From IMG/VR virus record IMGVR_UViG_3300036770_004813, positions 1-64,000 of that record: a stretch of 64,000 nucleotides of DNA; one strand, written 5' to 3'. Position numbers and translations under genes: made by a program. The stretch comes from a virus. Position 1 is the stretch's first letter; each line of letters starts with the position of its first letter. Of the stretch, positions 495 through 58,125 are shown in pieces. Under the pieces are notes generated by a model. The model searched no databases. It saw nothing but the letters and a program-made list of their open reading frames with translations, and was not told the DNA's origin.

Positions 495-531
495 AAACCA
501 CGCTTACTCGTCGCTGGGTGGGGCGTGGTTT
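495..531. other. Hairpin carrying a start-type motif in its loop
   Basis: Perfect 9-bp inverted repeat AAACCACGC (495-503) and GCGTGGTTT (523-531). The loop, read on the minus strand, contains CACCCAGCGA (511-520), the motif found before many phage start codons. No convincing gene follows on the minus strand. The rest of 411-685 looks non-coding to me. Confidence 0.5.
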
Positions 532-3013: not shown

Positions 3014-3273
3014 TGATGTTGCTCACGATTGTTTTTGTAGGGCTGGCCGGCATCATTGCCGGTTACGCCCTAGCTCCTCAGGTCAGCAAAGCACTGTTGT
3101 TCAGGGCCTATTGCAAGGGCAAGCTCTCGGCACAGGCCCACCGTAACGATGAGATCGTTCAGTTACAGCGTAGGGTCTGGAGGTTGGAGGCCATCACCCG
3201 GCGCATAGGGCAACCCTCAACGCTTGGCTGCAGTGTTGGCGGCATAAAGCGTATTGAAGAGGACAAGGCATGA
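3013..3273 (+). CDS. Small membrane-anchored protein
   Basis: An 86-aa protein with one N-terminal membrane helix (about residues 3-24) and a basic, coiled tail. The ATG overlaps the upstream stop (TGATG). Its last residues, LGCSVGGIKRIEEDK, are encoded by a 48-bp block that recurs almost unchanged inside the gene at 63204-63842, in the same frame. Function unknown. Confidence 0.6.
   Translation: MMLLTIVFVGLAGIIAGYALAPQVSKALLFRAYCKGKLSAQAHRNDEIVQLQRRVWRLEAITRRIGQPSTLGCSVGGIKRIEEDKA
3220..3267 (+). repeat. 48-bp dispersed repeat, copy 1
   Basis: Matches the reverse complement of 63501-63548 at 45 of 48 positions. Both copies are coding and read in the same frame (LGC-VGG-KRIEE). Confidence 0.9.
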
Positions 3274-4118
3274 TCAACAGTAGTGCCGTCGCCACAAATC
3301 AACCGCTCCCGTATAACCGGGAGCCCCTCCTAACAGCAGCAGAGGAAATCGAGCTGGCCAAGGCCATACAGATCGGGCAGGCAAAAGATGCCACCCCATT
3401 GCAAAAGCGAAGGGCTGAGCGTGCAAAGCGTCGCATGATCCGCGCAAATATGCGGCTCGTTATGGTCGTTGCCCACAAGCTTTGGCGCACGCATAAGTGC
3501 ACATCCATGACCGTGGACGATCTTGTGCAAGAGGGAACATTTGGCCTCAAGCGTGCGGCTGAACTATTTGATCCGACACGAGGTTACAAGTTTTCAACTT
3601 ATGCCTACGGATGGATTAATCAAGCCCTTAGACGTGCCATGAGCTGCCAGGATCGGGTTATCCGCTTGCCGCTTCATGTGCAGGATCAAATCTCCAGGTT
3701 TCGCCGTGTTTCACGGGAGATGGGCCCATCGGCTGACCCGGCTGATATTGCCAAGGCCGCAAACGCCAAACCCGAAACCCTTCAACTTGCTACATCATCC
3801 ATCGGGTTGATTTCGCTTAATCAACTGCAAAGGGATATTTGCAAAGGCATTGAAATTGGCGATTCAGTAGCAGCACCTGAAGACACAAGCTATCTCGATG
3901 AGTTGGGATGGGACGAAGATGATATTAGGACACGGCTTTTGCCAGTCCTAAACGAAACAGAGCGTCAAGTTATTTGCTGGGTATTTGGTCTTAATGATGG
4001 CTCTGAAAAGAGTCTAGCGTTTGCAGCAAAGCAGCTTAACGTCAGTCGGCAGACAATACATACAACTATGCGCCGTGCAATAAATAAACTAAAGCTAGTT
4101 GCACATCAGCAAAGGTGA
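3270..4118 (+). CDS. Phage-encoded sigma-70 family factor
   Basis: This 282-aa protein has the order of a group 2/3 sigma-70 factor. A region 1.2-like start (EEIELAKAIQIG) is followed by region 2 (about residues 55-125: RMIRANMRLVMVVAHKL, DDLVQEGTFGLKRAAE, then YKFSTYAYGWINQALRRAM). Region 3 covers about 130-185, and region 4 (about 225-280) has the helix-turn-helix SLAFAAKQLNVSRQTIHTTM. All core-binding and -10-binding parts seem present, so it should work. It lies in the early operon (ATGA overlap with the gene before), so it is a likely switch for middle or late transcription. Sequence alone does not show which promoters it reads. Confidence 0.9.
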   Translation: MINSSAVATNQPLPYNREPLLTAAEEIELAKAIQIGQAKDATPLQKRRAERAKRRMIRANMRLVMVVAHKLWRTHKCTSMTVDDLVQEGTFGLKRAAELFDPTRGYKFSTYAYGWINQALRRAMSCQDRVIRLPLHVQDQISRFRRVSREMGPSADPADIAKAANAKPETLQLATSSIGLISLNQLQRDICKGIEIGDSVAAPEDTSYLDELGWDEDDIRTRLLPVLNETERQVICWVFGLNDGSEKSLAFAAKQLNVSRQTIHTTMRRAINKLKLVAHQQR

Positions 4119-4510: not shown

Positions 4511-4549
4511 TCAGCCCAAGTCCAGACAAGGACTCATTCCACCCAGCGA
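4506..4549 (+). promoter_or_regulatory. Internal hairpin leader with CACCCAGCGA
   Basis: TATGAT (4506-4511) as -10, hairpin AGTCC/GGACT (4519-4523 with 4530-4534), CACCCAGCGA at 4540-4549, then an in-frame ATG at 4558. Same layout as the leaders at 1787, 39463 and 41813, here within an ORF. Confidence 0.5.
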
Positions 4550-4752
4550 CTCCACCTATGCCAACCGTTGAGCAAGCCGTAGCGCTTGACCTCCTAGCAG
4601 ATGTTGAGCAGGTCGCACAAGAGGCAGAGCAGGCTTGCCTTTGGCTATCCCGTGCACGTCACGATCTCCAGCCCGACTCTGTTGCACGTTTGCAAACTGC
4701 CCTCTGCCGGCTCGAAACGGCAGCCACCCACCTTCACCACATCACCCGATGA
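4507..4752 (+). CDS. Small helical protein
   Basis: An 81-aa protein whose body (ALDLLADVEQVAQEAEQACLW and on) is one or two long helices. ATG at 4507 overlaps the upstream stop. The CACCCAGCGA leader element suggests that a shorter form starting at 4558 (64 aa) may be the main product. Function unknown. Confidence 0.6.
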   Translation: MISPSPDKDSFHPATPPMPTVEQAVALDLLADVEQVAQEAEQACLWLSRARHDLQPDSVARLQTALCRLETAATHLHHITR

Positions 4753-36868: not shown

Positions 36869-36955
36869 ATGCGATGAGACCCAATGCCCCTGTCCGGCTT
36901 TGCATCAATTTGTAAACTGTCCAGTTCTGGGATGGATGAGCGCAACGGCAGGCGC

Positions 36956-36998
36956 TACTATTTGGATATGGAGGCAAGACCTTCAACCCACCCAGCGA
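36956..36998 (+). promoter_or_regulatory. Promoter -10 and hairpin leader with CACCCAGCGA
   Basis: TACTAT (36956-36961), hairpin GGAGG/CCTTC (36970-36974 with 36980-36984, one G-U pair), CACCCAGCGA at 36989-36998, then 4 nt to the ATG at 37003. The stretch GCGCAACGGCAGGCGCTAC before the -10 is shared with three other islands. Confidence 0.65.
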
Positions 36999-37002
36999 TC
37001 CC

Positions 37003-37395
37003 ATGAAAGCCCTCTACATCACTGACGAGATTGACACCTGCGACTGTTGCGGTCGCACTGATCTGAAGGCCACAGTCGCCATGCAGCTCAGTGACGGTGG
37101 CATCCTTCACTACGGACGCACTTGCGCTGCTCGCAATAGTGGTAAGGATCAACGCCAGATCAAACAAGAAATTGCCGACAACAAGCAAGCTCGGATTGAT
37201 GCCGCCTTTGATGAGCTTCGGGAAACTCCAGCGATGCAGGCTTGGTACGGCAAGCGCATTGAGCTTTATGCCAAGTACAAAGGTCGCCTCAGCAGCGCTG
37301 AATGGGCACGGATGATTGCGCCCGAAGCAGACGCAGTTGAGCAGGTCAAACAACAAATTGCTCAAAAGCACGGAATTTCAGCCTGCTGCCTCTGA
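37003..37395 (+). CDS. Zinc-ribbon-like accessory protein
   Basis: 130 aa. CDCCGRTDLKATVAMQL (Cys13, 15, 16) and GRTCAARNSG (Cys about 43) look like a small metal-binding domain near the N-terminus. A helical part rich in Lys/Gln/Ala follows and ends CC. Proteins with this CDxCGR start are frequent in cyanophage and picocyanobacterial accessory regions; role unknown. Confidence 0.65.
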   Translation: MKALYITDEIDTCDCCGRTDLKATVAMQLSDGGILHYGRTCAARNSGKDQRQIKQEIADNKQARIDAAFDELRETPAMQAWYGKRIELYAKYKGRLSSAEWARMIAPEADAVEQVKQQIAQKHGISACCL

Positions 37396-37428
37396 CCCCC
37401 GCCCCACCGGCCACACGCCACCCGCACC

Positions 37429-37608
37429 ATGGAACACAACACCGCTACAGACGCAGCCGCACTGCTGGCCGAAATCGACACCGCGATGGCGGCATATACC
37501 GCCTCGATTGATCGGGGCCTGGCACTGGCCGCAGAGATGCGCCAGATGGCCAACACCATCGACAGCGGCATGGCCGATGCGCGGGCTGAGTTTGATGAGT
37601 GGTGGTGA
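37429..37608 (+). CDS. Small helical protein
   Basis: 59 aa (MEHNTATDAAALLAEIDTAM..., ending ARAEFDEWW). Two amphipathic helices, Ala/Met-rich. In line with the island's other short genes. Confidence 0.5.
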   Translation: MEHNTATDAAALLAEIDTAMAAYTASIDRGLALAAEMRQMANTIDSGMADARAEFDEWW

Positions 37609-37610
37609 GC

Positions 37611-37937
37611 ATGAATCACCCACGCATCCCCACCTTTAACCATCTTCCACAGCCTCCGATTGATTGTGAACACCTCTTCGCGGTCTGGCCACCCTTAGTT
37701 TTGCCAGATGGCCTAACTGCTGATCACGTTGTTGCCGGCATCCCTATGGAGTCATGGATGGGCCCCGACTACGGCATCCAAGTCTTTGCGTCTGACGCCT
37801 ACGGTCGAGTGATCGACTGGCTGCCCGTCTGGGACACGCATGACGGCATTGATTTATCACCAGTTGACTGGCCCGCTAACTGGGTTGACGTGGTGTGCGG
37901 TGCTTTCCAAGTACTGCTGCCGAAATCCGATGCCTGA
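37611..37937 (+). CDS. Unknown accessory protein
   Basis: 108 aa from the ATG 2 nt after the preceding stop. Trp/Pro/Asp-rich (DYGIQVFASDAYGRVIDWLP, PVDWPANWVDVVCGAFQVLL), a compact alpha/beta look. Family not recognised. Confidence 0.55.
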   Translation: MNHPRIPTFNHLPQPPIDCEHLFAVWPPLVLPDGLTADHVVAGIPMESWMGPDYGIQVFASDAYGRVIDWLPVWDTHDGIDLSPVDWPANWVDVVCGAFQVLLPKSDA

Positions 37938-37993
37938 CCCCCACGGCCCGCCGGGAGCCTATCCCGGCAATCCATCCCACTGCACCACACGCC

Positions 37994-38245
37994 ATGACCG
38001 ATCCTTTTCTCTCCAATGTCACCCCGCTTGTCCAGTTTGGTGAGCAATCAATGCAATTTCCGCCACACCCTTTGCCGCCAGATCAAATTACGCTTCCTGT
38101 TGTTCAGGCTATCAAGGCTTCCATACCTTCCGGTCTAAAGCCCGGATGGCATACAGCAACAATCACTTTCAAGCTAAACGAAGAGGGAGGCCTAACGCAA
38201 ATTGATGAGTACAAAGTTTCCAGCTTTGGTAATGACAAGCCATGA
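37994..38245 (+). CDS. Unknown small accessory protein
   Basis: 83 aa. GWHTATITFKLNEEGGLTQI near the C-terminus suggests a beta hairpin. Its leader begins TGACCCCCAC and holds a CGGGA/TCCCG dyad; the same TGACCCCC phrase precedes the gene at 37429. Confidence 0.5.
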   Translation: MTDPFLSNVTPLVQFGEQSMQFPPHPLPPDQITLPVVQAIKASIPSGLKPGWHTATITFKLNEEGGLTQIDEYKVSSFGNDKP

Positions 38246-38406
38246 TCCACCCCTACGAAATCCACCTGCAAGCCCCCTCCGGCCAGCGCCGCACCCTGCA
38301 CCTGCAGGCCCAGTCCCCAACCCATGCCATGGCGTCAGCAATCGAGCTGGCAGGCCTCGGTCCCAAGGCAACGGTGATCCGCTGTTATCGCCTAGGGGAC
38401 TGGTGA
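38242..38406 (+). CDS. Unknown small protein
   Basis: 54 aa, ATGA-coupled. MIHPYEIHLQAPSGQRRTLH and THAMASAIELAGLGPKATVI predict a small beta-beta-alpha-beta fold. Very common style in picocyanobacterial accessory genes. Confidence 0.55.
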   Translation: MIHPYEIHLQAPSGQRRTLHLQAQSPTHAMASAIELAGLGPKATVIRCYRLGDW

Positions 38407-38705
38407 GCGATCCCACCAACGCCGAACGCTCCCGCCGCTGGCGTGCCAGGAAGGCCGGAAAGATCCCACCAGCAGAGCGGTTGATCTGCTCAGCCTGCGG
38501 CAAGGGTCGCAGCGGACGCTATGGGGAAATCTGCCGCCGTTGCTGGGAGAGGGTCACGCCAGAAGGGAGGGCAGCAAAGGCTAAGAGGGTGGCGAAGACT
38601 AGGGGAAAACATGCCGACGCCGCCGATCCCTTTGCTCTTCTATCGGAAGCAGAGGCGAGAGCGCAAATCAAAGCAAACGCAAAAAAATGGCGTGACAGAT
38701 TGTGA
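38403..38705 (+). CDS. Zinc-finger-like basic protein
   Basis: 100 aa from GTG 38403 (GTGA overlap). Basic start (TNAERSRRWRARKAGKIPPA), then a four-cysteine knuckle (CSACG ... CRRC, about residues 30-48) and a Lys/Ala-rich helix. It probably binds nucleic acid. Confidence 0.6.
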   Translation: MSDPTNAERSRRWRARKAGKIPPAERLICSACGKGRSGRYGEICRRCWERVTPEGRAAKAKRVAKTRGKHADAADPFALLSEAEARAQIKANAKKWRDRL

Positions 38706-38745
38706 ACAGGCCCGCCGGATGCACGGCAACCGCAACGGTAGGCGC

Positions 38746-38788
38746 TACATTATGTGCATCGGAGGGGAGGCCCTCCACCACCCACGAC
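38746..38788 (+). promoter_or_regulatory. Promoter -10 and hairpin leader (variant motif)
   Basis: TACATT (38746-38751), perfect hairpin GGAGGG/CCCTCC (38761-38766 with 38771-38776), then CACCCACGA, a shortened form of CACCCAGCGA, shortly before the ATG at 38794. Confidence 0.55.
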
Positions 38789-38793
38789 AGACA

Positions 38794-38994
38794 ATGACCC
38801 TTCCTCTCCTGGCAATGCTTCCCTCCAGCCCCACCAACATGGCGGTGCGCTGCCAGTGGCATTGCATCGCTTTAGTTGGGTCCGACATGGAGGGTTACAG
38901 GCACTGGGACGGCAATTTGGTCCGCTGGATGGCCCATCCTCAATTTGATATGGCGGAGTTCAACCGCCTCTGTCGGCACTACAAGCTCGACTGA
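38794..38994 (+). CDS. Unknown accessory protein
   Basis: 66 aa from the ATG after the hairpin leader: MTLPLLAMLPSSPTNMAVRC, then QWHCIALVGSDMEGYRHWDG. Aromatic and His-rich; it has its own leader and terminator. Function unknown. Confidence 0.55.
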   Translation: MTLPLLAMLPSSPTNMAVRCQWHCIALVGSDMEGYRHWDGNLVRWMAHPQFDMAEFNRLCRHYKLD

Positions 38995-39005
38995 GCATCA
39001 CCACC

Positions 39006-39029
39006 GCCCCGGCCACCCGGGGCTTTTTT
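39006..39029 (+). terminator. Terminator of the 37-39 kb island
   Basis: GCCCCGG/CCGGGGC stem (39006-39012 with 39017-39023) and TTTTTT. Bases 39030-39185 hold nothing I can support. Confidence 0.85.
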
Positions 39030-39185
39030 CATGCCCTACTCTCAGCAAGCCCGGTCGGCCCATCATCCGCAAGGGGGGCGCGGTGGTTGCTTTCGTTGGG
39101 GGCAGCCTGAAACCGTACCGAAGGCCGGGTTAAACTAACCCCAACACCCTCCAAGCCTCTCAGCGATGCTCAAACAGGAGGGTCA

Positions 39186-39314
39186 CTATTTAGCAGGCTT
39201 TTTTGCCATCTTCTTTCCAGCCTTGGCAGGAGCCTTAGCCCCACCCTTGGCGGGCTTCATCAGGAAGGCGGGGAGCTTGCCCTTTTTGTCGCCTTTGCCT
39301 TTTTCGTAGGACAT
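39186..39314 (-). CDS. Small Lys/Ala/Gly-rich basic protein
   Basis: 42 aa: MSYEKGKGDKKGKLPAFLMK then PAKGGAKAPAKAGKKMAKKP and AK. Eighteen or so basic residues and no acidic ones after position 9, like an H1-type tail. GGGAAAACT lies 24 nt before its ATG, which favours this strand over an antisense hydrophobic reading. Likely a DNA-binding or head-internal peptide among head genes. Confidence 0.6.
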   Translation of the reverse strand: MSYEKGKGDKKGKLPAFLMKPAKGGAKAPAKAGKKMAKKPAK

Positions 39315-39338
39315 GCCCGTTTGGTGAGGTTCTGGTTT

Positions 39339-39347
39339 AGTTTTCCC
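39339..39347 (-). promoter_or_regulatory. Late start-associated motif GGGAAAACT
   Basis: 24 nt before the ATG of the small basic protein gene. Confidence 0.7.
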
Positions 39348-39389
39348 TGTCCGGCGGTGGTGACGACTTATTAACGCTCTTGCGCTGCC

Positions 39390-39456
39390 TTGCCAGGCGC
39401 AACGCTAGGCGCTACAATGAAAGGACAGCAGGGGGAACTCTGCTCACACCCAGCGA
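39390..39456 (+). promoter_or_regulatory. Sigma-70-type promoter and hairpin leader with CACCCAGCGA
   Basis: TTGCCA (39390-39395), 17-nt spacer, TACAAT (39413-39418); hairpin AGCAGGG/CTCTGCT (39427-39433 with 39438-39444, GGAA loop); CACCCAGCGA at 39447-39456; ATG 6 nt later at 39463. Transcription should start about at the hairpin base. Confidence 0.75.
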
Positions 39457-39462
39457 CTTCAA

Positions 39463-39723
39463 ATGACCGTCATGACTACCACGCTTCCCGAAACGCTGCT
39501 TGATATGGGCCCTTGGGGCGTCTGCATTTTTGCGACTCCTCAAGCTGCCACCGCAATGGCAGCCGAACTTGGATGGGATACTGGCGAGTTGGATCGCCTG
39601 CATTTAAATCCATCTGGTGATGCCTACTTGTTCCATGAAACTCAGGGAGGTCGCACTCATACTCAGGTGATTCGTGTCAAACCTGGAACCGCCGATGGCG
39701 AATTTATCGCCAGTGACGACTAA
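39463..39723 (+). CDS. Unknown accessory protein
   Basis: 86 aa (ATG 39463; MTTT at 39472 possible). DMGPWGVCIFATPQAATAMA and HLNPSGDAYLFHETQGGRTH suggest a small alpha/beta fold. Monocistronic, with a strong promoter, hairpin leader and terminator, sitting inside the opposite-strand head operon. Confidence 0.6.
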   Translation: MTVMTTTLPETLLDMGPWGVCIFATPQAATAMAAELGWDTGELDRLHLNPSGDAYLFHETQGGRTHTQVIRVKPGTADGEFIASDD

Positions 39724-39740
39724 ACACGCTAGTGTTGAAT

Positions 39741-39766
39741 TTCCCCGCAAAGGCGGGGAAGACTTT
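39741..39766 (+). terminator. Terminator-like hairpin
   Basis: TTCCCCGC/GCGGGGAA stem (39741-39748 with 39753-39760), followed by GACTTTTCC. Confidence 0.65.
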
Positions 39767-39783
39767 TCCTTAACAGTTTGTGG

Positions 39784-40551
39784 TTAGTCTTTGCCGCCCG
39801 ACTTTTTCCGTTTGCCTGGCCTCAGCAACGTTCTAACTGCTTGCCGACGCACGGTGGTTTTTAAGGCCTTTTCAACTTTTTGATCAAGACCTCCAAAGGC
39901 ACTTATGCCCTCAAGCCTTACCTTAATCTTTTTAGAGGGCACGTCAAAAAATACTTTTGATGTTGAGGCCAGTGATTTGATGCGCCCTGCAGTCCCCTTG
40001 CTTATGTCATCGCCCTTAAAGATATAGTTCTTGCCGCTGCCTCTATTTGGTGCAATTCCTATTCTCTCCGATTGATTGTTAAAGTATATCCTGTCCATGC
40101 CGTTCTTTTGCCAGCGGCTACCACCAGCGTTTTCCATCATTTTGGCAGTTAGCTTAGGAGAAAATCGCCCTGCCTGCTTTGGGAGAGATTTAGCTTTGGC
40201 GCCAATTTGATAATCCCATCCGTCTTTCTTTCTGATTGCCCGACCCTCTTGCGTTACGGGAGATGTGGCCATGGATTTCTTGCCCCCTTTGCCCATTATC
40301 CCAGCCCTTCCGCCTGAGATGTTCGCCACCTGCCTAGCCCTCAACTTCCCGCTAGCTGTCTTGAGCCTCCCACCTCTGACCGTGGCGCCATCTCCCCCCA
40401 CGCTGGTGATCTTGCCGCTGTTATCTCGCGTCAGGCGGTTAGGCCCCTTCGCCACACGCTTAGCCGCTGGCCTCTTGCTGCCCCCTCCACCAGTCGAGGC
40501 AAAGCGCCCGTTTGCGTCACGCTTATAGGTGCGCCCCGCCTTGCCAGCCAT
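39784..40551 (-). CDS. Basic head-region protein with shared N-terminal domain (short paralogue)
   Basis: 255 aa. The first 95 residues or so (AGRTYKRDANGRFASTGG, KITSVGGDGATVRGGRLKTA, SGGRAGIMGKGGK) match the start of the protein at 42074-43219. The remainder is unrelated to that protein and includes SRWQKNGMDRIYFNN and FDVPSKKIKVRLEG, with a very basic end. The two copies flank the head morphogenesis gene. The shared part may target the head; the free C-terminus could be cargo. I cannot name its function. Confidence 0.6.
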   Translation of the reverse strand: MAGKAGRTYKRDANGRFASTGGGGSKRPAAKRVAKGPNRLTRDNSGKITSVGGDGATVRGGRLKTASGKLRARQVANISGGRAGIMGKGGKKSMATSPVTQEGRAIRKKDGWDYQIGAKAKSLPKQAGRFSPKLTAKMMENAGGSRWQKNGMDRIYFNNQSERIGIAPNRGSGKNYIFKGDDISKGTAGRIKSLASTSKVFFDVPSKKIKVRLEGISAFGGLDQKVEKALKTTVRRQAVRTLLRPGKRKKSGGKD

Positions 40552-40572
40552 CGAAGATCAGTTGCTACCTGT

Positions 40573-40581
40573 AGTTTTCCC
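40573..40581 (-). promoter_or_regulatory. Late start-associated motif GGGAAAACT
   Basis: 21 nt before the ATG at 40551, 7 nt after the stop of the head morphogenesis gene. Confidence 0.7.
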
Positions 40582-40587
40582 GCAGGA

Positions 40588-41655
40588 TCAGACCACAGGC
40601 TCCGGTGCCCTGGTGATGCCTGGATATTGTCTACGTTCTGATGGCGAGGGCTTCAATACAGCTTCCTCTAGCTTTTTTGATGCCTTTTCAAATGGCCATC
40701 CCTTAGAGTCTCCAAACTCTTTCCATACTTTTTCACGTTCCTTTTCCCAGAAGTCTTCGCGTAGTAGTTCCCGCCTAAGTTCTGGGTCATTCTCTTCTAC
40801 TGCTTCTGAAGATACGGGAGATAGACTGCAACGACACCTTGGATGAAGCGCACCTATCATCTCATCTAATCGGTAAATCTTTCCATGCCTGCTAGCACAA
40901 ACCACACACGTCCTTTCATCCTGCGTTGCAATCCACCGCCCATAGACGTAGCCATTGCGAGCCGCTGAGGCCTTCTGTGCTGCCACATAAGCATTAGCCA
41001 GCTCAGAGCGTGCGATCAGCTCAGCACGTTGCTTTAGCCCCATCCGAGCATTGAGGCCTTGTGGATCCTTGGCACCGAGTAGGGCAGTCCTGATCTCACG
41101 CTCCAACACCCTGGGCCCTTTGCCGCGCCCGATGCCATCAGTAACGATTCTTGCAATGTTGTCACGGAACGACTCGATTTCGCCACGGATATAGGCTGAG
41201 GCTGTTTTAGCAGCAGCTTCTACGGCAGCCCTGCTAGCGCCAACAAAGGGTCCATCTGCGTTTTCTTCTACGGTGGAAGCTAGCTTCTGTCCTAGCTCCC
41301 CACCGAGGGCAACAGCTTCCTCAAAGTCTTTTTTATATTGCCTTTCGATGGCTTTAATCATCGGCTCTGGCATGTACTCCTGAGCCAGTTGAATTAGTTT
41401 CTTATATTTAGCAGAACCATCAGAAATGCTATAACTGCCAGGTCTACGGATAACACCATCGCCAGAAGGTGTGGCCAGCAGGTCAGGATCAATGAATTGG
41501 GCATAATACTTTCTGAGATCACGGAGGGTGCGGAGGAGGGCACGGGTTAAGGATGCTGTGGTGTTGCTGACGCTACGGTTGGAGAGGGTGTCTAGGGCTT
41601 TGGCATAGTCGTCGGCTAGGTCTAGCTGCTGGTTTCCTATGATTTTGGTGGGCAT
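40588..41655 (-). CDS. Phage head morphogenesis protein (Mu F / SPP1 gp7 type)
   Basis: 355 aa. C-terminal family signature: RAELIARSELANAYVAAQKA, YVYGRWIATQDERTCVVCAS, then ALHPRCRCSLSPV (Cys residues and the final HPRCRC are usual). The N-terminal half is helical. Such minor head proteins sit inside the procapsid near the portal and are often ejected with DNA. Motif GGGAAAACT is 37 nt upstream. Confidence 0.85.
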   Translation of the reverse strand: MPTKIIGNQQLDLADDYAKALDTLSNRSVSNTTASLTRALLRTLRDLRKYYAQFIDPDLLATPSGDGVIRRPGSYSISDGSAKYKKLIQLAQEYMPEPMIKAIERQYKKDFEEAVALGGELGQKLASTVEENADGPFVGASRAAVEAAAKTASAYIRGEIESFRDNIARIVTDGIGRGKGPRVLEREIRTALLGAKDPQGLNARMGLKQRAELIARSELANAYVAAQKASAARNGYVYGRWIATQDERTCVVCASRHGKIYRLDEMIGALHPRCRCSLSPVSSEAVEENDPELRRELLREDFWEKEREKVWKEFGDSKGWPFEKASKKLEEAVLKPSPSERRQYPGITRAPEPVV

Positions 41656-41692
41656 GGGCAGACAGGCTTATCCAAGTGCTCTTGCTGTTTCT

Positions 41693-41701
41693 AGTTTTCC
41701 C
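41693..41701 (-). promoter_or_regulatory. Late start-associated motif GGGAAAACT
   Basis: 37 nt before the ATG at 41655; directly divergent from the 41741-41807 promoter. Confidence 0.65.
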
Positions 41702-41740
41702 GCTTTCAAGGTTACGAGTGGTCAACTTTCACCCCTGCCC

Positions 41741-41807
41741 TTGTCAAGCGCAACGCTAGGCGCTACAGTATGGAGACAGCAGGGGGAACCCTGCGTACAC
41801 CCAGCGA
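41741..41807 (+). promoter_or_regulatory. Sigma-70-type promoter and hairpin leader with CACCCAGCGA
   Basis: TTGTCA (41741-41746), 17-nt spacer, TACAGT (41764-41769); hairpin GCAGGG/CCCTGC with GGAA loop (41779-41784, 41789-41794); CACCCAGCGA at 41798-41807; ATG at 41813. Compared with the leader at 39390, one stem base has changed while the pair is kept (G-C against G-U). Confidence 0.75.
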
Positions 41808-41812
41808 ATCCC

Positions 41813-42043
41813 ATGAACACCTTCATCCTTGAGCGCGACGAAACCCAGCAGACACCTGCCGCTCGTTGCACATTCAAGCCGTACACCTCGGAATCGGGTA
41901 AACAATGGGTTGAAGTAACAATGCTCCATCTAACAAACATGGGATGGGGCGGCACGATGGGCAAGGGCGACGGCCACATGAATGTCAAGCACGCCAGAGA
42001 GTTCTACGCCAGCCTTCTTGGGAGAGGGTTTAGGCCTGCCTGA
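41813..42043 (+). CDS. Unknown accessory protein
   Basis: 76 aa: MNTFILERDETQQTPAARCT, WVEVTMLHLTNMGWGGTMGK, ending SLLGRGFRPA. Monocistronic with promoter, leader and terminator. Function unknown; a small beta-rich protein. Confidence 0.6.
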   Translation: MNTFILERDETQQTPAARCTFKPYTSESGKQWVEVTMLHLTNMGWGGTMGKGDGHMNVKHAREFYASLLGRGFRPA

Positions 42044-42051
42044 TTAACACC

Positions 42052-42075
42052 GCCCCTCCCTCGGAGGGGCCTTTT
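42052..42075 (+). terminator. Terminator
   Basis: GCCCCTCC/GGAGGGGC (42052-42059 with 42063-42070), loop CTC, then CTTTT. It extends 2 nt into the convergent minus gene. Confidence 0.8.
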
Positions 42076-44806: not shown

Positions 44807-46327
44807 TTATTGCTCTTCGTCGTCTATCGGATCCTCTTCTACCTGATCCTCTTCATCATCCCCTGCCAGATCATTAGGGCCAGGAACGGGAGGATTCAGC
44901 AAGGCATTCTGCTTCTCATCCTCCTCCGCGAGTTGAGCCGCTTCATCCTCACCGTTGATACCAGGCCGCAGCATCCCGCGCCTCTGAGCCAGGTTGGTCA
45001 CGGTTTCACGCATCAGGAGGCCCTTGTCATAGAGGGTGCCTGCCAGCGTCAACAGGGCATCATCCACCGGCTTATCGGTGATGCCAGGCAACAGGTCGAT
45101 CCCTGCCCCAACCTCTGGCAGGTCCCCGGTGAAGGTGCCCCATAGATCAAAGAGCGATTGCCAGCAGGAGCTTTTGGCTTCTGCCAAGCTGGTGATGCTC
45201 GCCTGAAGTTGTGCGCTTTCTAGCTCAGCCTGTGTTGCAGTGCGCTGCCCTGAGCCTGAACTAAACAAAAAGCTAAGGGTGCTACGGTCAATTAACTTCT
45301 CAATTTCTGCAAGATGTTGCAGGTGTTTGTCTAGGCTAGATCCTGTAGGTTCAGCAAAGGTAAGGCTACCGTTCGGATCCTTGATTTCAACTAGGCTATT
45401 CGGCCCCAGTGTTAGCGGTGTGCCCTCCACCCTGCCGGCATCTTTGAGCACCGTCACGGGCAATGCGCAGCGGTGGAGCAGCTCTTTCAAGTCGCTGTAT
45501 TCCCTGAACCAATCAAGGGTCAGGTTCGCCAGGCTGAGCAGCATTGGAGCGCCAGAGCCGAATCCATCTCGTGGTGGGCCATACCAAATGACAGGCGGAT
45601 ATTCCAGCTCCCTGCCGCCTGCACCGATGAACCTATCCTCGTCCAGAACCTCAATCGTTCCCTCGCCGTTATCTTTGCTTTTGTCGCCACCATGGATCTT
45701 AATTAGCTGCCAGGTGCCGCCGCGCATGACGCGATAGCGCGGCTCTAGCTTGATGCCAAAATCATCATCATCTACCTCATGCCATTCGAGCACGGTAACA
45801 GCGATCGGCACATGCTTACGCCCAATCTTTTTTAGCTTCCAGTTCAGGACATTGCTGCGCTCGGCAATACTGAAGACAGGCCGCCTGCCCTGGGCAATCT
45901 CAGCAGCCCTGGATTCTGCTGTGCCCTGCGGCATGTCGCACATCAGGAGGCAACCGCCATCCCTCAGCACCAGGCTATCGGCCACCATGCCCCAGGCCTT
46001 CAGAGAGTCGCCCTCACCATTGATGTCAGACTGCGCTTCGATCAGGCTCTGCTGCACCCCGCGCAGTTCATAACGGCTGAGCACACCAGCAAAAGCCGTG
46101 ATGCCATCCCTGAAGAATGACGGATAGGAAGAGCGTCTGACCCTTCCCTCATAAGCCTGCTCTGGCTCCCCTTGTTCTTTCGGAAGATGCCTCTTTTTTG
46201 CTTCGCCCCTCAGTAGATCCCAGCAATCTGCAACCAGTTCTAATTCTGTGCGAACCTCAGCCAGCTTCGGGTGATGAAAACTAGGTAGTTTCCCGTTCGT
46301 TGTCGAATGGCTGATCTGCTGCCGCAC
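44807..46327 (-). CDS. Portal protein (DUF4055 family)
   Basis: 506 aa, GTG start. NGKLPSFHHPKLAEVRTELE, then RSSYPSFFRDGITAFAGVLS, YPPVIWYGPPRDGFGSGAPM and ERKLIDRSTLSFLF-type spine helix (IEKLIDRSTLSFLFSSGSGQ) fit DUF4055 portals. Very acidic C-terminus (DDEEDQVEEDPIDDEEQ). Forms the dodecameric DNA channel. The start overlaps the sigma-like gene by 47 nt, and the GGGAAAACT motif lies inside that gene's 3' end. Confidence 0.8.
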   Translation of the reverse strand: MRQQISHSTTNGKLPSFHHPKLAEVRTELELVADCWDLLRGEAKKRHLPKEQGEPEQAYEGRVRRSSYPSFFRDGITAFAGVLSRYELRGVQQSLIEAQSDINGEGDSLKAWGMVADSLVLRDGGCLLMCDMPQGTAESRAAEIAQGRRPVFSIAERSNVLNWKLKKIGRKHVPIAVTVLEWHEVDDDDFGIKLEPRYRVMRGGTWQLIKIHGGDKSKDNGEGTIEVLDEDRFIGAGGRELEYPPVIWYGPPRDGFGSGAPMLLSLANLTLDWFREYSDLKELLHRCALPVTVLKDAGRVEGTPLTLGPNSLVEIKDPNGSLTFAEPTGSSLDKHLQHLAEIEKLIDRSTLSFLFSSGSGQRTATQAELESAQLQASITSLAEAKSSCWQSLFDLWGTFTGDLPEVGAGIDLLPGITDKPVDDALLTLAGTLYDKGLLMRETVTNLAQRRGMLRPGINGEDEAAQLAEEDEKQNALLNPPVPGPNDLAGDDEEDQVEEDPIDDEEQ

Positions 46328-47243
46328 CGCTCACTTTTTTATCTTCTGTTTGAGTTTTCCCCCTCTGAACAAAAATCCCGAGCTGTTGGATGATTTCCAC
46401 AGGGTTGGACGTTGCCTTAGGCTGCCGTGTCCCCCTCTTTCTTGCCCCTGAAGCTGGCACACACAGGCTCAGATCATTTTGCGTCTGTATCGGCTCGCGG
46501 CGAATGATGCTTTGCGCACGGCCTAGGAATTGTTGGTGCGATAGGGAGGCCAGTTTGCGTTTCTTTTTGCCTGTCCATGCCGCCTTAATCATCTCCTGAT
46601 CAGCCCATGGCAAGGCCTCCCAGGCACGGTCAGCAATCGTGAGGGCATCCGCCAGCTCATCGAATGTTTCAGCGTCGTCTAGCGCGTCAGAGTGGGCAGA
46701 GCGGTAAGCATCAGGATCTAGCTGGGAGGTGGTCTGCTGTGCCTGAAGGATGGCCTCGATGTCTTCTGGCTTGAGGCCCGTAGCTTGCTCCACTGCTGCC
46801 ATGGTGGCCCCTGCTGCTGCCATCCGGCGCACGGTGGGGGCAGTGTCGCGCCAGAGATCAGGGAACCGCACACCAGAGCTGTGGCCCCGATCCCTTAGCC
46901 ATTGGTGCATGGCGCCCTGGATGCACGGGACCACATAGGTGCTCAGCCTGAAGGGTTTGCCCGTGTCTGGGTTGCTCAGTGTGGGGTCATACCTTCTGCA
47001 ACCCTTGAGGAGGCCCTGGGCTGCCACCAAATACAGATCCTCGAAGGGCAACTTAGTGCGAAACGCCAAACGGCTTGCCATTGCTGCCGCCAATTTCAGA
47101 TTCTCTGCTGCAAGCTGTTCAGACCACTCTGTAGGAGGTGGAAACGATCCAAGTTTGCTGGCCTCTATGTCCACATCAGGACACGGGCGCACCTTGGTCG
47201 AGCGCGCTGATCGTGGGCGACCCTTGGCAGGTTTCGTCGTCAC
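46281..47243 (-). CDS. Second sigma-70-like factor
   Basis: 320 aa. Region 2 is recognisable at about residues 45-120 (AENLKLAAAMASRLAFRTKL, FEDLYLVAAQGLLKGCRRYD, FRLSTYVVPCIQGAMHQWLR), followed by a region 3-like stretch (TMAAVEQATGLKPEDIEAIL). A region 4-like HTH is not clear, only a possible one around residues 200-245, and the C-terminus is a Lys/Gln-rich tail. ATGA-coupled to TerL and overlapping portal. It may be a late sigma or a sigma-derived appropriator. Confidence 0.7.
   Translation of the reverse strand: MTTKPAKGRPRSARSTKVRPCPDVDIEASKLGSFPPPTEWSEQLAAENLKLAAAMASRLAFRTKLPFEDLYLVAAQGLLKGCRRYDPTLSNPDTGKPFRLSTYVVPCIQGAMHQWLRDRGHSSGVRFPDLWRDTAPTVRRMAAAGATMAAVEQATGLKPEDIEAILQAQQTTSQLDPDAYRSAHSDALDDAETFDELADALTIADRAWEALPWADQEMIKAAWTGKKKRKLASLSHQQFLGRAQSIIRREPIQTQNDLSLCVPASGARKRGTRQPKATSNPVEIIQQLGIFVQRGKTQTEDKKVSGAAADQPFDNERETT
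46287..46294 (-). promoter_or_regulatory. Shortened motif GGGAAACT
   Basis: One A fewer than the standard motif, inside both the portal 5' end and the sigma-like gene 3' end. May be chance. Confidence 0.25.
46353..46361 (-). promoter_or_regulatory. Late start-associated motif GGGAAAACT
   Basis: 25 nt before the portal GTG and within the sigma-like coding sequence. Confidence 0.65.
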
Positions 47244-56787: not shown

Positions 56788-56797
56788 TCGCTGGGTG
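56788..56797 (-). promoter_or_regulatory. Leader motif CACCCAGCGA
   Basis: 3 nt before the ATG at 56784; possible -10 TAGGAT upstream. A clear hairpin directly before it is not obvious; a 7-bp stem (AGACTTG/CAAGTCT) lies farther upstream. Confidence 0.55.
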
Positions 56798-57843: not shown

Positions 57844-58125
57844 CTACCGCTTCCGATCCCGAATCGGGCTAGGCGAAAGCTGCAGTTGGCTAACGATCCA
57901 TCGAGTGTCCATGGTTGGGCTAGCAACTTCATAGTGCGGAGCGATGGGCAGCCCTGCAGAGATGGCAGAGGCGCAGGCTTCATGCAGGGTGAGACCTTTG
58001 CTTTTGAAGTAGCCCGCGAGGTCTGACGGGGCTAATACCTGCGAGACACGGTAGGAGTATTCCTGCGGGCGATTCCGTATGAAAACTTCATCATCAACCT
58101 TGAACAGGGTGTTGGAGGGGGTCAC
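57844..58125 (-). CDS. Unknown small protein
   Basis: 93 aa from GTG 58125. TPSNTLFKVDDEVFIRNRPQ then EYSYRVSQVLAPSDLAGYFK and GLTLHEACASAISAGLPIAP. The start sits inside a CACCCAGTGACC variant of the leader motif, with a GGTC/GACC stem (58147-58150 with 58134-58137) before it. Confidence 0.5.
   Translation of the reverse strand: MTPSNTLFKVDDEVFIRNRPQEYSYRVSQVLAPSDLAGYFKSKGLTLHEACASAISAGLPIAPHYEVASPTMDTRWIVSQLQLSPSPIRDRKR

Follow-up and report, generated by a model that had tools for sequence, protein, structure and literature searches.

A covarying 5´ hairpin leader precedes unrelated small genes in phages that probably infect freshwater picocyanobacteria

Introduction

Among repeated start-proximal modules, the closest described are the start-associated sequences (SAS) and extended start-associated sequences (ESAS) of Cluster K mycobacteriophages (Pope et al. 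2011, PMC3203893; PMC12699233), with promoters located within the ESAS (PMC11373665). Here we describe a leader that recurs in a 64,000-nucleotide stretch (hereafter the window) of the 65,481-base IMG/VR virus record IMGVR_UViG_3300036770_004813, and that consists of a -10 box, a short hairpin, a C/A-rich start sequence and the ATG of a small gene. As with the window leaders, unrelated genes share a conserved and asymmetric short sequence 3-7 nt upstream of their ATG in SAS/ESAS, which also have an inverted repeat just upstream and a promoter in the same block and are nearly absent from the host genome. However, the SAS is a 13-bp sequence, GGGATAGGAGCCC, with a Shine-Dalgarno (SD) core, whereas the window leaders use CACCCAGCGA or another C/A-rich sequence without an SD core. 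The ESAS repeats are 17 bp long, conserved in sequence and reported to be unable to support RNA pairing (PMC3203893), with the -35 and -10 inside the block, in contrast to the window-type hairpin, which has 5-7 bp, lies downstream of the -10 and shows clear compensating changes. There is no sequence relation between the two, and the host phylum differs.

The promoter early stem-loops (PeSLs) of T4-type phages (Arbiol 2010; Comeau 2014), as covered by their titles and by PMC4503421 and PMC3950731, resemble the window leaders in that a promoter with a stem-loop is repeated in regions of small, variable genes, where it is thought to mediate gene shuffling. The borders of gene exchange said to coincide with the PeSL motif have a counterpart in two comparisons reported below. 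By title, however, PeSLs are promoter-terminator composites in which the stem-loop ends the previous transcript, whereas the window hairpin follows the promoter, lacks a T-run and lies in the mRNA leader; on the word of the citing papers and titles, PeSLs also belong to a different phage group. In the haloarchaeal virus HGTV-1, most open reading frames (ORFs) in the left part are preceded by a TATA-box-plus-inverted-repeat motif (PMC3950731), again a case in which many small ORFs follow a box resembling a promoter and an inverted repeat, but this is an archaeal virus, and its description in PMC3950731 mentions neither RNA covariation nor a start-associated sequence. A stem-loop at or a few nt from the mRNA 5´ end, as predicted for the window leaders from the position of the -10, is known from ompA of E. 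coli, where it protects the mRNA from 5´-end-dependent decay (Bouvet and Belasco 1992 and Arnold 1998, as cited in PMC3997798). As cited there, ompA-type stem-loops concern single host genes and their protection is experimental, whereas the window type is a module repeated across unrelated phage genes, for which protection would be a prediction. The leader resembles SAS/ESAS and PeSLs as a start-proximal module repeated before unrelated genes, yet lacks the defining traits of each. No leader in the window or 15 related loci matched Rfam 15 at gathering score, where only abiF RNA and tRNAs did, and nothing similar was found in the literature searched.

Small, mutually unrelated accessory genes abound in phage genomes, and when phages capture one, how expression follows is seldom visible; here, one leader precedes at least 34 unrelated families of small proteins. 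The leader offers a signature by which accessory genes could be sought in freshwater cyanophages, where they are candidates for roles in host takeover or counter-defence. It is also compact enough to be tried in expression work with cyanobacteria and, next to SAS/ESAS, adds a second, independent system in which to ask what start-associated sequences do.

Four leaders in the window are a single element

The leaders at 36955, 38745, 39412 and 41763 share a -10 box, 8-9 nt, a 5-7-bp hairpin, a C/A-rich start sequence and an ATG, and have in common the promoter block CGCAACGSYAGGCGCTACNNT (4 observed vs 0.01 expected). A preliminary description of this DNA had assigned one layout to a larger set of leaders, which held for these four, at 36.9-41.8 kb, and not for the others it named. 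The hairpins it placed at 36970, 38761, 39427 and 41779 are present, each beginning 8-9 nt past the -10 hexamer, and its -35/-10 pairs at 39390 (TTGCCA-17-TACAAT) and 41741 (TTGTCA-17-TACAGT) were both recovered by scan. Three of the four leaders contain the exact 10-mer CACCCAGCGA and one a diverged form. The parts are as follows, with scores from the covariance model R1 described below.

36911-36961, + strand: leader 1 promoter, with box TGTAAACTGTCC at 36911-36922 and block CGCAACGGCAGGCGCTACTAT at 36941-36961 (-10 TACTAT); both precede leaders in other phages
36969-36985, + strand: leader 1 hairpin, TGGAGG-CAAGA-CCTTCA; the counterpart in the related locus L011 is TGGAGG-CGAGAC-CCTCCA (R1 match 36955-37005, 43.5 bits)
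36989-36998, + strand: leader 1 start-associated sequence CACCCAGCGA, ATG 4 nt downstream
37003-37395, + strand: leader 1 ORF, 130 aa, N-terminal CxxC...C pattern
38701-38751, + strand: leader 2 promoter, TGTGAACAGGCC box and CGCAACGGTAGGCGCTACATT block
38761-38776, + strand: leader 2 hairpin, GGAGGG-GAGG-CCCTCC, the commonest stem of the family (R1 63.9 bits)
38777-38793, + strand: leader 2 C/A-rich start region ACCACCCACGACAGACA, a diverged form of CACCCAGCGA
38794-38994, + strand: leader 2 ORF, 66 aa, no family match
39006-39023, + strand: intrinsic terminator 3´ of the leader 2 gene
39390-39418, + strand: leader 3 promoter, TTGCCA-17-TACAAT, containing CGCAACGCTAGGCGCTACAAT
39427-39444, + strand: leader 3 hairpin, AGCAGGG-GGAA-CTCTGCT, with one G-U pair and a GNRA loop (R1 36.2 bits)
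39447-39456, + strand: leader 3 start-associated sequence CACCCAGCGA, ATG 6 nt downstream
39463-39723, + strand: leader 3 ORF, 86 aa, no family match, on the strand opposite to the structural-region genes that follow
39740-39761, + strand: terminator-like hairpin 3´ of the leader 3 gene
41741-41769, + strand: leader 4 promoter, TTGTCA-17-TACAGT
41779-41794, + strand: leader 4 hairpin, GCAGGG-GGAA-CCCTGC; the related locus L008 has GCAGGG-GAGG-CCCTGC (R1 46.7 bits)
41798-41807, + strand: leader 4 start-associated sequence CACCCAGCGA, ATG 5 nt downstream
41813-42043, + strand: leader 4 ORF, 76 aa
42052-42070, + strand: intrinsic terminator 3´ of the leader 4 gene

The leader recurs in other phages

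The preliminary description had named a lack of homologous leaders elsewhere and of statistical covariation as grounds for refuting its proposal. Neither ground held: promoter-keyed and model searches found homologous leaders in other phages, and the hairpin covaries (below). Searches keyed on the promoter alone revealed the same element in about 20 further IMG/VR contigs; the promoter block by itself led to L008 and L011, of the window lineage, and to L082-L084 and L087, from another phage with a different large terminase subunit (TerL). With the commonest stem and its tail as the query, eleven stretches with about fourteen distinct leaders were recovered, and nearly all had a further conserved box, TGTGAACNGGCC (also given as ACNNTNTGTGAACNGGCC), 28-36 nt upstream of the -10. 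A TGTGAAC-type upstream box is present at 36911 and 38701 in the window (leaders 1 and 2) and before most leaders of related phages; leaders 3 and 4 are without it. The conserved box is likely to be bound by a transcription regulator that these phages have in common. Querying with the box and -10, with no hairpin condition, gave 22 stretches, most with the leader and several with new stems.

We built the covariance model R1 from 24 leaders. At a cut-off of E = 1 it matched 33 loci at 56 places; the weakest of these matches are not significant. Across 13 whole records, each had 2-4 matches at E <= 0.01, with four in the window phage and 2-3 copies being the rule among related records. The locus L010 was left out as an independent case, being the same phage as the window (100% TerL identity), as were seven promoter-pattern matches without a leader (L080, L081, L085, L086, L096, L097 and L101); the first pattern scan also returned L009 and L012, in which the leader layout is absent. 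There was no match in 50,697 isolate phage records. In host-family genomes, the promoter-plus-hairpin pattern occurred in 1/400, and R1 found two copies on one short contig of the matching genome (G154), a contig that may be viral in origin. We also considered, and rejected, a host leader: the pattern CACCCAGCGAN{2,9}ATG occurs in 121/400 host-family genomes, with nearly all inspected loci lying inside long open frames and none having the leader promoter or hairpin.

The promoter common to the leaders is also found before a longer, multi-stem 5´ RNA followed by an ATG (L091 8372-8450, L099 159-240 and L105 131-205), with the outline ATCGGG-loop-CCCGAT, CGCCAGYCGGCCAYAGGCG, CCGGGCCGAAYCG, SCCCCAGYAGTCCGGGG; the L091 copy had no match to Rfam up to E = 5. 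Elsewhere (L106 2225-2341, L107 3067-3125 and L108 1424-1482), the first hairpin is separated from the start codon by a second structured part; in L107 and L108 this is a hairpin (GCGGCC or GCAGCC, a CAGA loop and GGCTGC) that itself varies between the two.

Compensating changes argue for an RNA hairpin

In an alignment of 24 distinct leaders, 94.3% of stem cells pair, and both sides have changed in 15 cells, compared to 4.7 +/- 1.6 after shuffling (0/500 shuffles reach the observed value) and 0-2 in slid controls. RNAalifold, unprompted, predicts exactly the same helix. Among 18 distinct 6-bp stems, 104/108 cells are paired, whereas shuffled stem letters gave 75.7 +/- 3.7 with a maximum of 92 in 20,000. 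The stems curated by hand include GGAGGG/CCCTCC, GGGAGG/CCTCCC, GGCGGG/CCCGCC, GCCGGG/CCCGGC, GCAGGG/CCCTGC, GGAACC/GGTTTC, GGAGGC/GCTTCC and GGGGGC/GCTCCC. As the preliminary description had put it, the hairpins keep pairing while their sequence differs. These compensating stems are not a product of how the leaders were selected, since most came from searches without a stem in the query; among the true hits of promoter-only scans, nearly all had a hairpin at the corresponding position, and 25/27 had a helix close to the start. The stem begins 8-9 nt past the -10 in 24/24 leaders, and the transcript is therefore expected to start 0-3 nt before the stem. The loops are purine-rich, several are of the GNRA type (GAGA, GAAA and GGAA), and there are 8 G-U cells; these loops and G-U cells point to RNA, not DNA. 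From these comparisons of sequences, we consider it very probable that this phage-specific leader carries an RNA hairpin whose structure is selected. A terminator or attenuator was rejected: the leader hairpins have no T-run and are followed by C/A-rich sequence, and none appeared in a terminator scan that detected the downstream terminators.

The leader stays while the gene behind it changes

Behind the 49 leaders examined lie 45 distinct ORFs (47-130 aa) belonging to 34 families. Small ORFs tested behind leaders had no Pfam or PHROG match, with the 130-aa ORF giving two sub-threshold Pfam hits only. Comparison of L008 with the window around leader 4 showed the whole neighbourhood to be 90-94% identical, with homology ending at 41807, the last base of CACCCAGCGA, and restarting exactly where the terminator begins, at 42052. 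Between these points, the window has the 76-aa gene and L008 has an unrelated 125-aa gene instead. Around leader 1, homology with L011 ends at 37000, 2 nt beyond CACCCAGCGA, after which an unrelated 114-aa gene replaces the 130-aa gene. Conversely, a homologue of this 130-aa gene (81% over 57 aa) lies behind the same type of leader in L102/L106, where the stem before it is changed to GGGAGG/CCTCCC. Two swaps behind kept leaders, together with a homologue behind a changed stem, indicate on sequence comparison that leader and gene evolve separately. This modular aspect, in which the leader is kept and the gene behind it exchanged, had been overlooked in the preliminary description.

The start region is C/A-rich and rarely has a Shine-Dalgarno core

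In the 49 leaders, the last 20 nt before the ATG are 53% C, 31% A, 9% G and 7% T, and an SD core at -18 to -4 occurs in 2/49, both inside a second hairpin. The leader genes do lack an SD core in the usual place, as had been noted, but this is not distinctive in this phage, where an SD is present in only 21/83 window ORFs (rough ORF call). The proposal that CACCCAGCGA stands in place of an SD as a ribosome-binding signal fared less well. It occupies the SD place, 3-8 nt before the ATG, in six genes, as would be expected of an alternative ribosome-binding sequence pairing with 16S rRNA outside the anti-Shine-Dalgarno; however, its longest Watson-Crick match to picocyanobacterial 16S rRNA is 6 nt, no better than that of shuffled motifs, and most related phages have another C/A-rich sequence in the same place. 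We regard such pairing as highly improbable.

CACCCAGCGA also occurs outside the four-leader module

The window contains seven exact copies of CACCCAGCGA (0.16 +/- 0.39 expected). Six, at 1770, 4540, 36989, 39447 and 41798 (+) and 56788 (-), had been noted before, and each lies 3-8 nt upstream of the ATG that opens an ORF (49-408 aa). The seventh, at 511-520 (-), had been overlooked and has no ORF start after it. Enrichment of the motif disappears when 2 mismatches are tolerated (64 observed vs 70 expected). The copies outside the module that precede ORFs are as follows.

1770-1779, + strand: CACCCAGCGA in the stretch 1745-1786, preceding a 408-aa ORF at 1787; hairpin no better than shuffles
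4519-4557, + strand: possible outlying leader, AGTCC-agacaa-GGACT with CACCCAGCGA at 4540-4549 and ATG at 4558; different promoter, hairpin borderline
56788-56797, - strand: CACCCAGCGA 3 nt before a 49-aa ORF; hairpin unconvincing, motif conserved in L013

Several hairpins claimed for these places did not bear up: folding was no better than in shuffles at 1770 (z 0.02) and 668 (z 0.03), weak at 56788 (z -0.84) and borderline at 4540 (z -1.96, P 0.04), and model R1 gave no match to the 4519-4557 leader. A variant at 58125 (-), also taken for a leader, has no ATG within 36 nt and sits inside another ORF. Relatives sought through the 408-aa ORF at 1787 yielded none that could be confirmed. Since the copies at 668, 1770, 4540 and 56788 have promoters other than that of the four leaders, and hairpins that are unsupported or, at 4540, borderline, the window holds two overlapping things: the 10-nt start-associated sequence, which this phage lineage uses before six genes, and the module of promoter, hairpin and start region, present at four leaders.

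The source phage

Proteins encoded in the window include TerL, a portal protein and an integrase, as well as a ThyX-like protein recognized by reading of the translation. The TerL is closest to those of Cyanophage PSS2 and Synechococcus phages (~35% identity), and relatives of the integrase come from an uncultured cyanobacterium metagenome-assembled genome, Cyanobium sp. PLM2.Bin73 and Synechococcus sp. Tobar12-5m-g. Given the TerL likeness to cyanophages, the integrase and its relatives, the window most likely represents a temperate phage of freshwater picocyanobacteria. We also noted two sigma-70-like proteins, at 3270-4118 (+) and 46281-47243 (-), the latter with region 2 only and adjoining the terminase gene; either could recognise the shared leader promoter.

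What the leader might do

We suggest, with confidence evenly divided between belief and doubt, that phages of picocyanobacteria use the leader as a portable module for gene expression. Its promoter, in many cases preceded by a TGTGAAC box, would give an mRNA predicted to begin 0-3 nt ahead of the 5-7-bp stem-loop, and the stem is joined to the ATG of a small accessory gene by some 20 nt that are rich in C and A and poor in G (CACCCAGCGA in the window phage). The 5´-terminal stem-loop would most likely guard the short transcript against 5´-end-dependent decay and would prevent the start region from pairing with the following gene, making the leader fold independent of that gene, while the open, presumably unstructured C/A-rich stretch would permit ribosomes to start without an SD. 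Because the module would require nothing from the gene, any small ORF behind it could be expressed, and the shared leaders and terminators would act as recombination points for gene exchange. A role in mRNA stability or selective translation, as named in the preliminary description, is likewise one that we infer. More tentatively, the main function may be that of a universal docking slot, in which the promoter-hairpin-start module makes a captured small ORF expressible and also supplies the homology for its capture; its function would resemble that of an integron's promoter end, though in temperate picocyanophages and based on RNA structure.

Several points weigh against the portable expression module. 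Clean gene swaps number only two, both in close relatives of the window phage. Taken singly, leaders fold only modestly better than their shuffles (z mostly -1 to -2), so that the case for structure rests on comparison, and the stem-letter shuffles take no account of relatedness among leaders. The -35/-10 hexamer pairs are no commoner in the region than in shuffles (4 vs 3.6 expected). Finally, the copies in L091, L099 and L105 bear extra stems and a different tail, and the leaders may differ in role.

The main rival is a translational operator, in which a phage or host RNA-binding protein binds the hairpin and turns the small genes on or off jointly at a stage of infection. A shared structured leader before unrelated genes does resemble a post-transcriptional regulon, and recognition of shape and loop would suit the few purine-rich loop forms (GAGG, GAGA, GAAA, GGAA and AAGA) found while the stems vary. 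However, loop sequence and length (3-8 nt) vary even inside one phage (CAAGA, GAGG and GGAA in the window), and no candidate RNA-binding protein was identified; we consider an operator unlikely. That the leader is kept mainly as a joint for phage recombination, its structure inherited with the promoter as in a PeSL-like mobile cassette, would fit the swap borders at the leader end and terminator start and the homology supplied by several leaders per genome. We find this improbable, as a sequence needed for homology only should stay conserved, whereas the stem letters diverge while pairing is kept, which argues that the structure is under selection. The palindrome could instead act in DNA, as an operator or activator site by the promoter of the kind proposed for the ESAS inverted repeats, with the RNA fold incidental. 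It always lies just downstream of the -10 box, the promoter block is conserved alongside, and the phage is temperate with an integrase. But half-sites differ within one genome (GGAGGG, GCAGGG and TGGAGG) where one regulator would need one sequence, pairing in RNA is indicated by the compensating changes, the G-U pairs and the GNRA loops, and the conserved upstream TGTGAAC box is the better candidate for a DNA site, making a DNA-level element quite improbable. Compared with these, the portable expression module remains the reading that we prefer.

Other RNA elements in the same regions

An orphan abiF RNA (RF03085, 52.9 bits, cut-off 37) lies at 39147-39183 (+) in the window, and others are present in L089 (5890-5926, +) and L141-L175. 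An Abi_2 (PF07751) protein was not found in the window record that bears this RNA. We found the core of the abiF RNA in 37 IMG/VR contigs, and 22/24 whole records tested, including records of 89-184 kb, were without an Abi_2 protein, a count to be read with the reservation that records may be fragments and that a diverged AbiF could escape detection. As abiF RNA is the antitoxin of AbiF (PMC12373285), the stand-alone phage copies are candidate decoy RNAs that would counter AbiF defence.

A second intergenic element that recurs, CACGGCCCGCCGGGAGCCTATCCCGGCAATCCATCCCA, is found at 37938-37980 (+) in the window and in L011, L082, L089, L090, L093, L095, L100, L103, L106 and L107. In these same regions of small genes, it sits after a stop codon (as a rule TGACCCC) and before the following ATG. 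Its 13 variants have the stem GCCGGG/CCCGGC, and a possible compensating GGC/GCC to AGC/GCT pair would make a pseudoknot.

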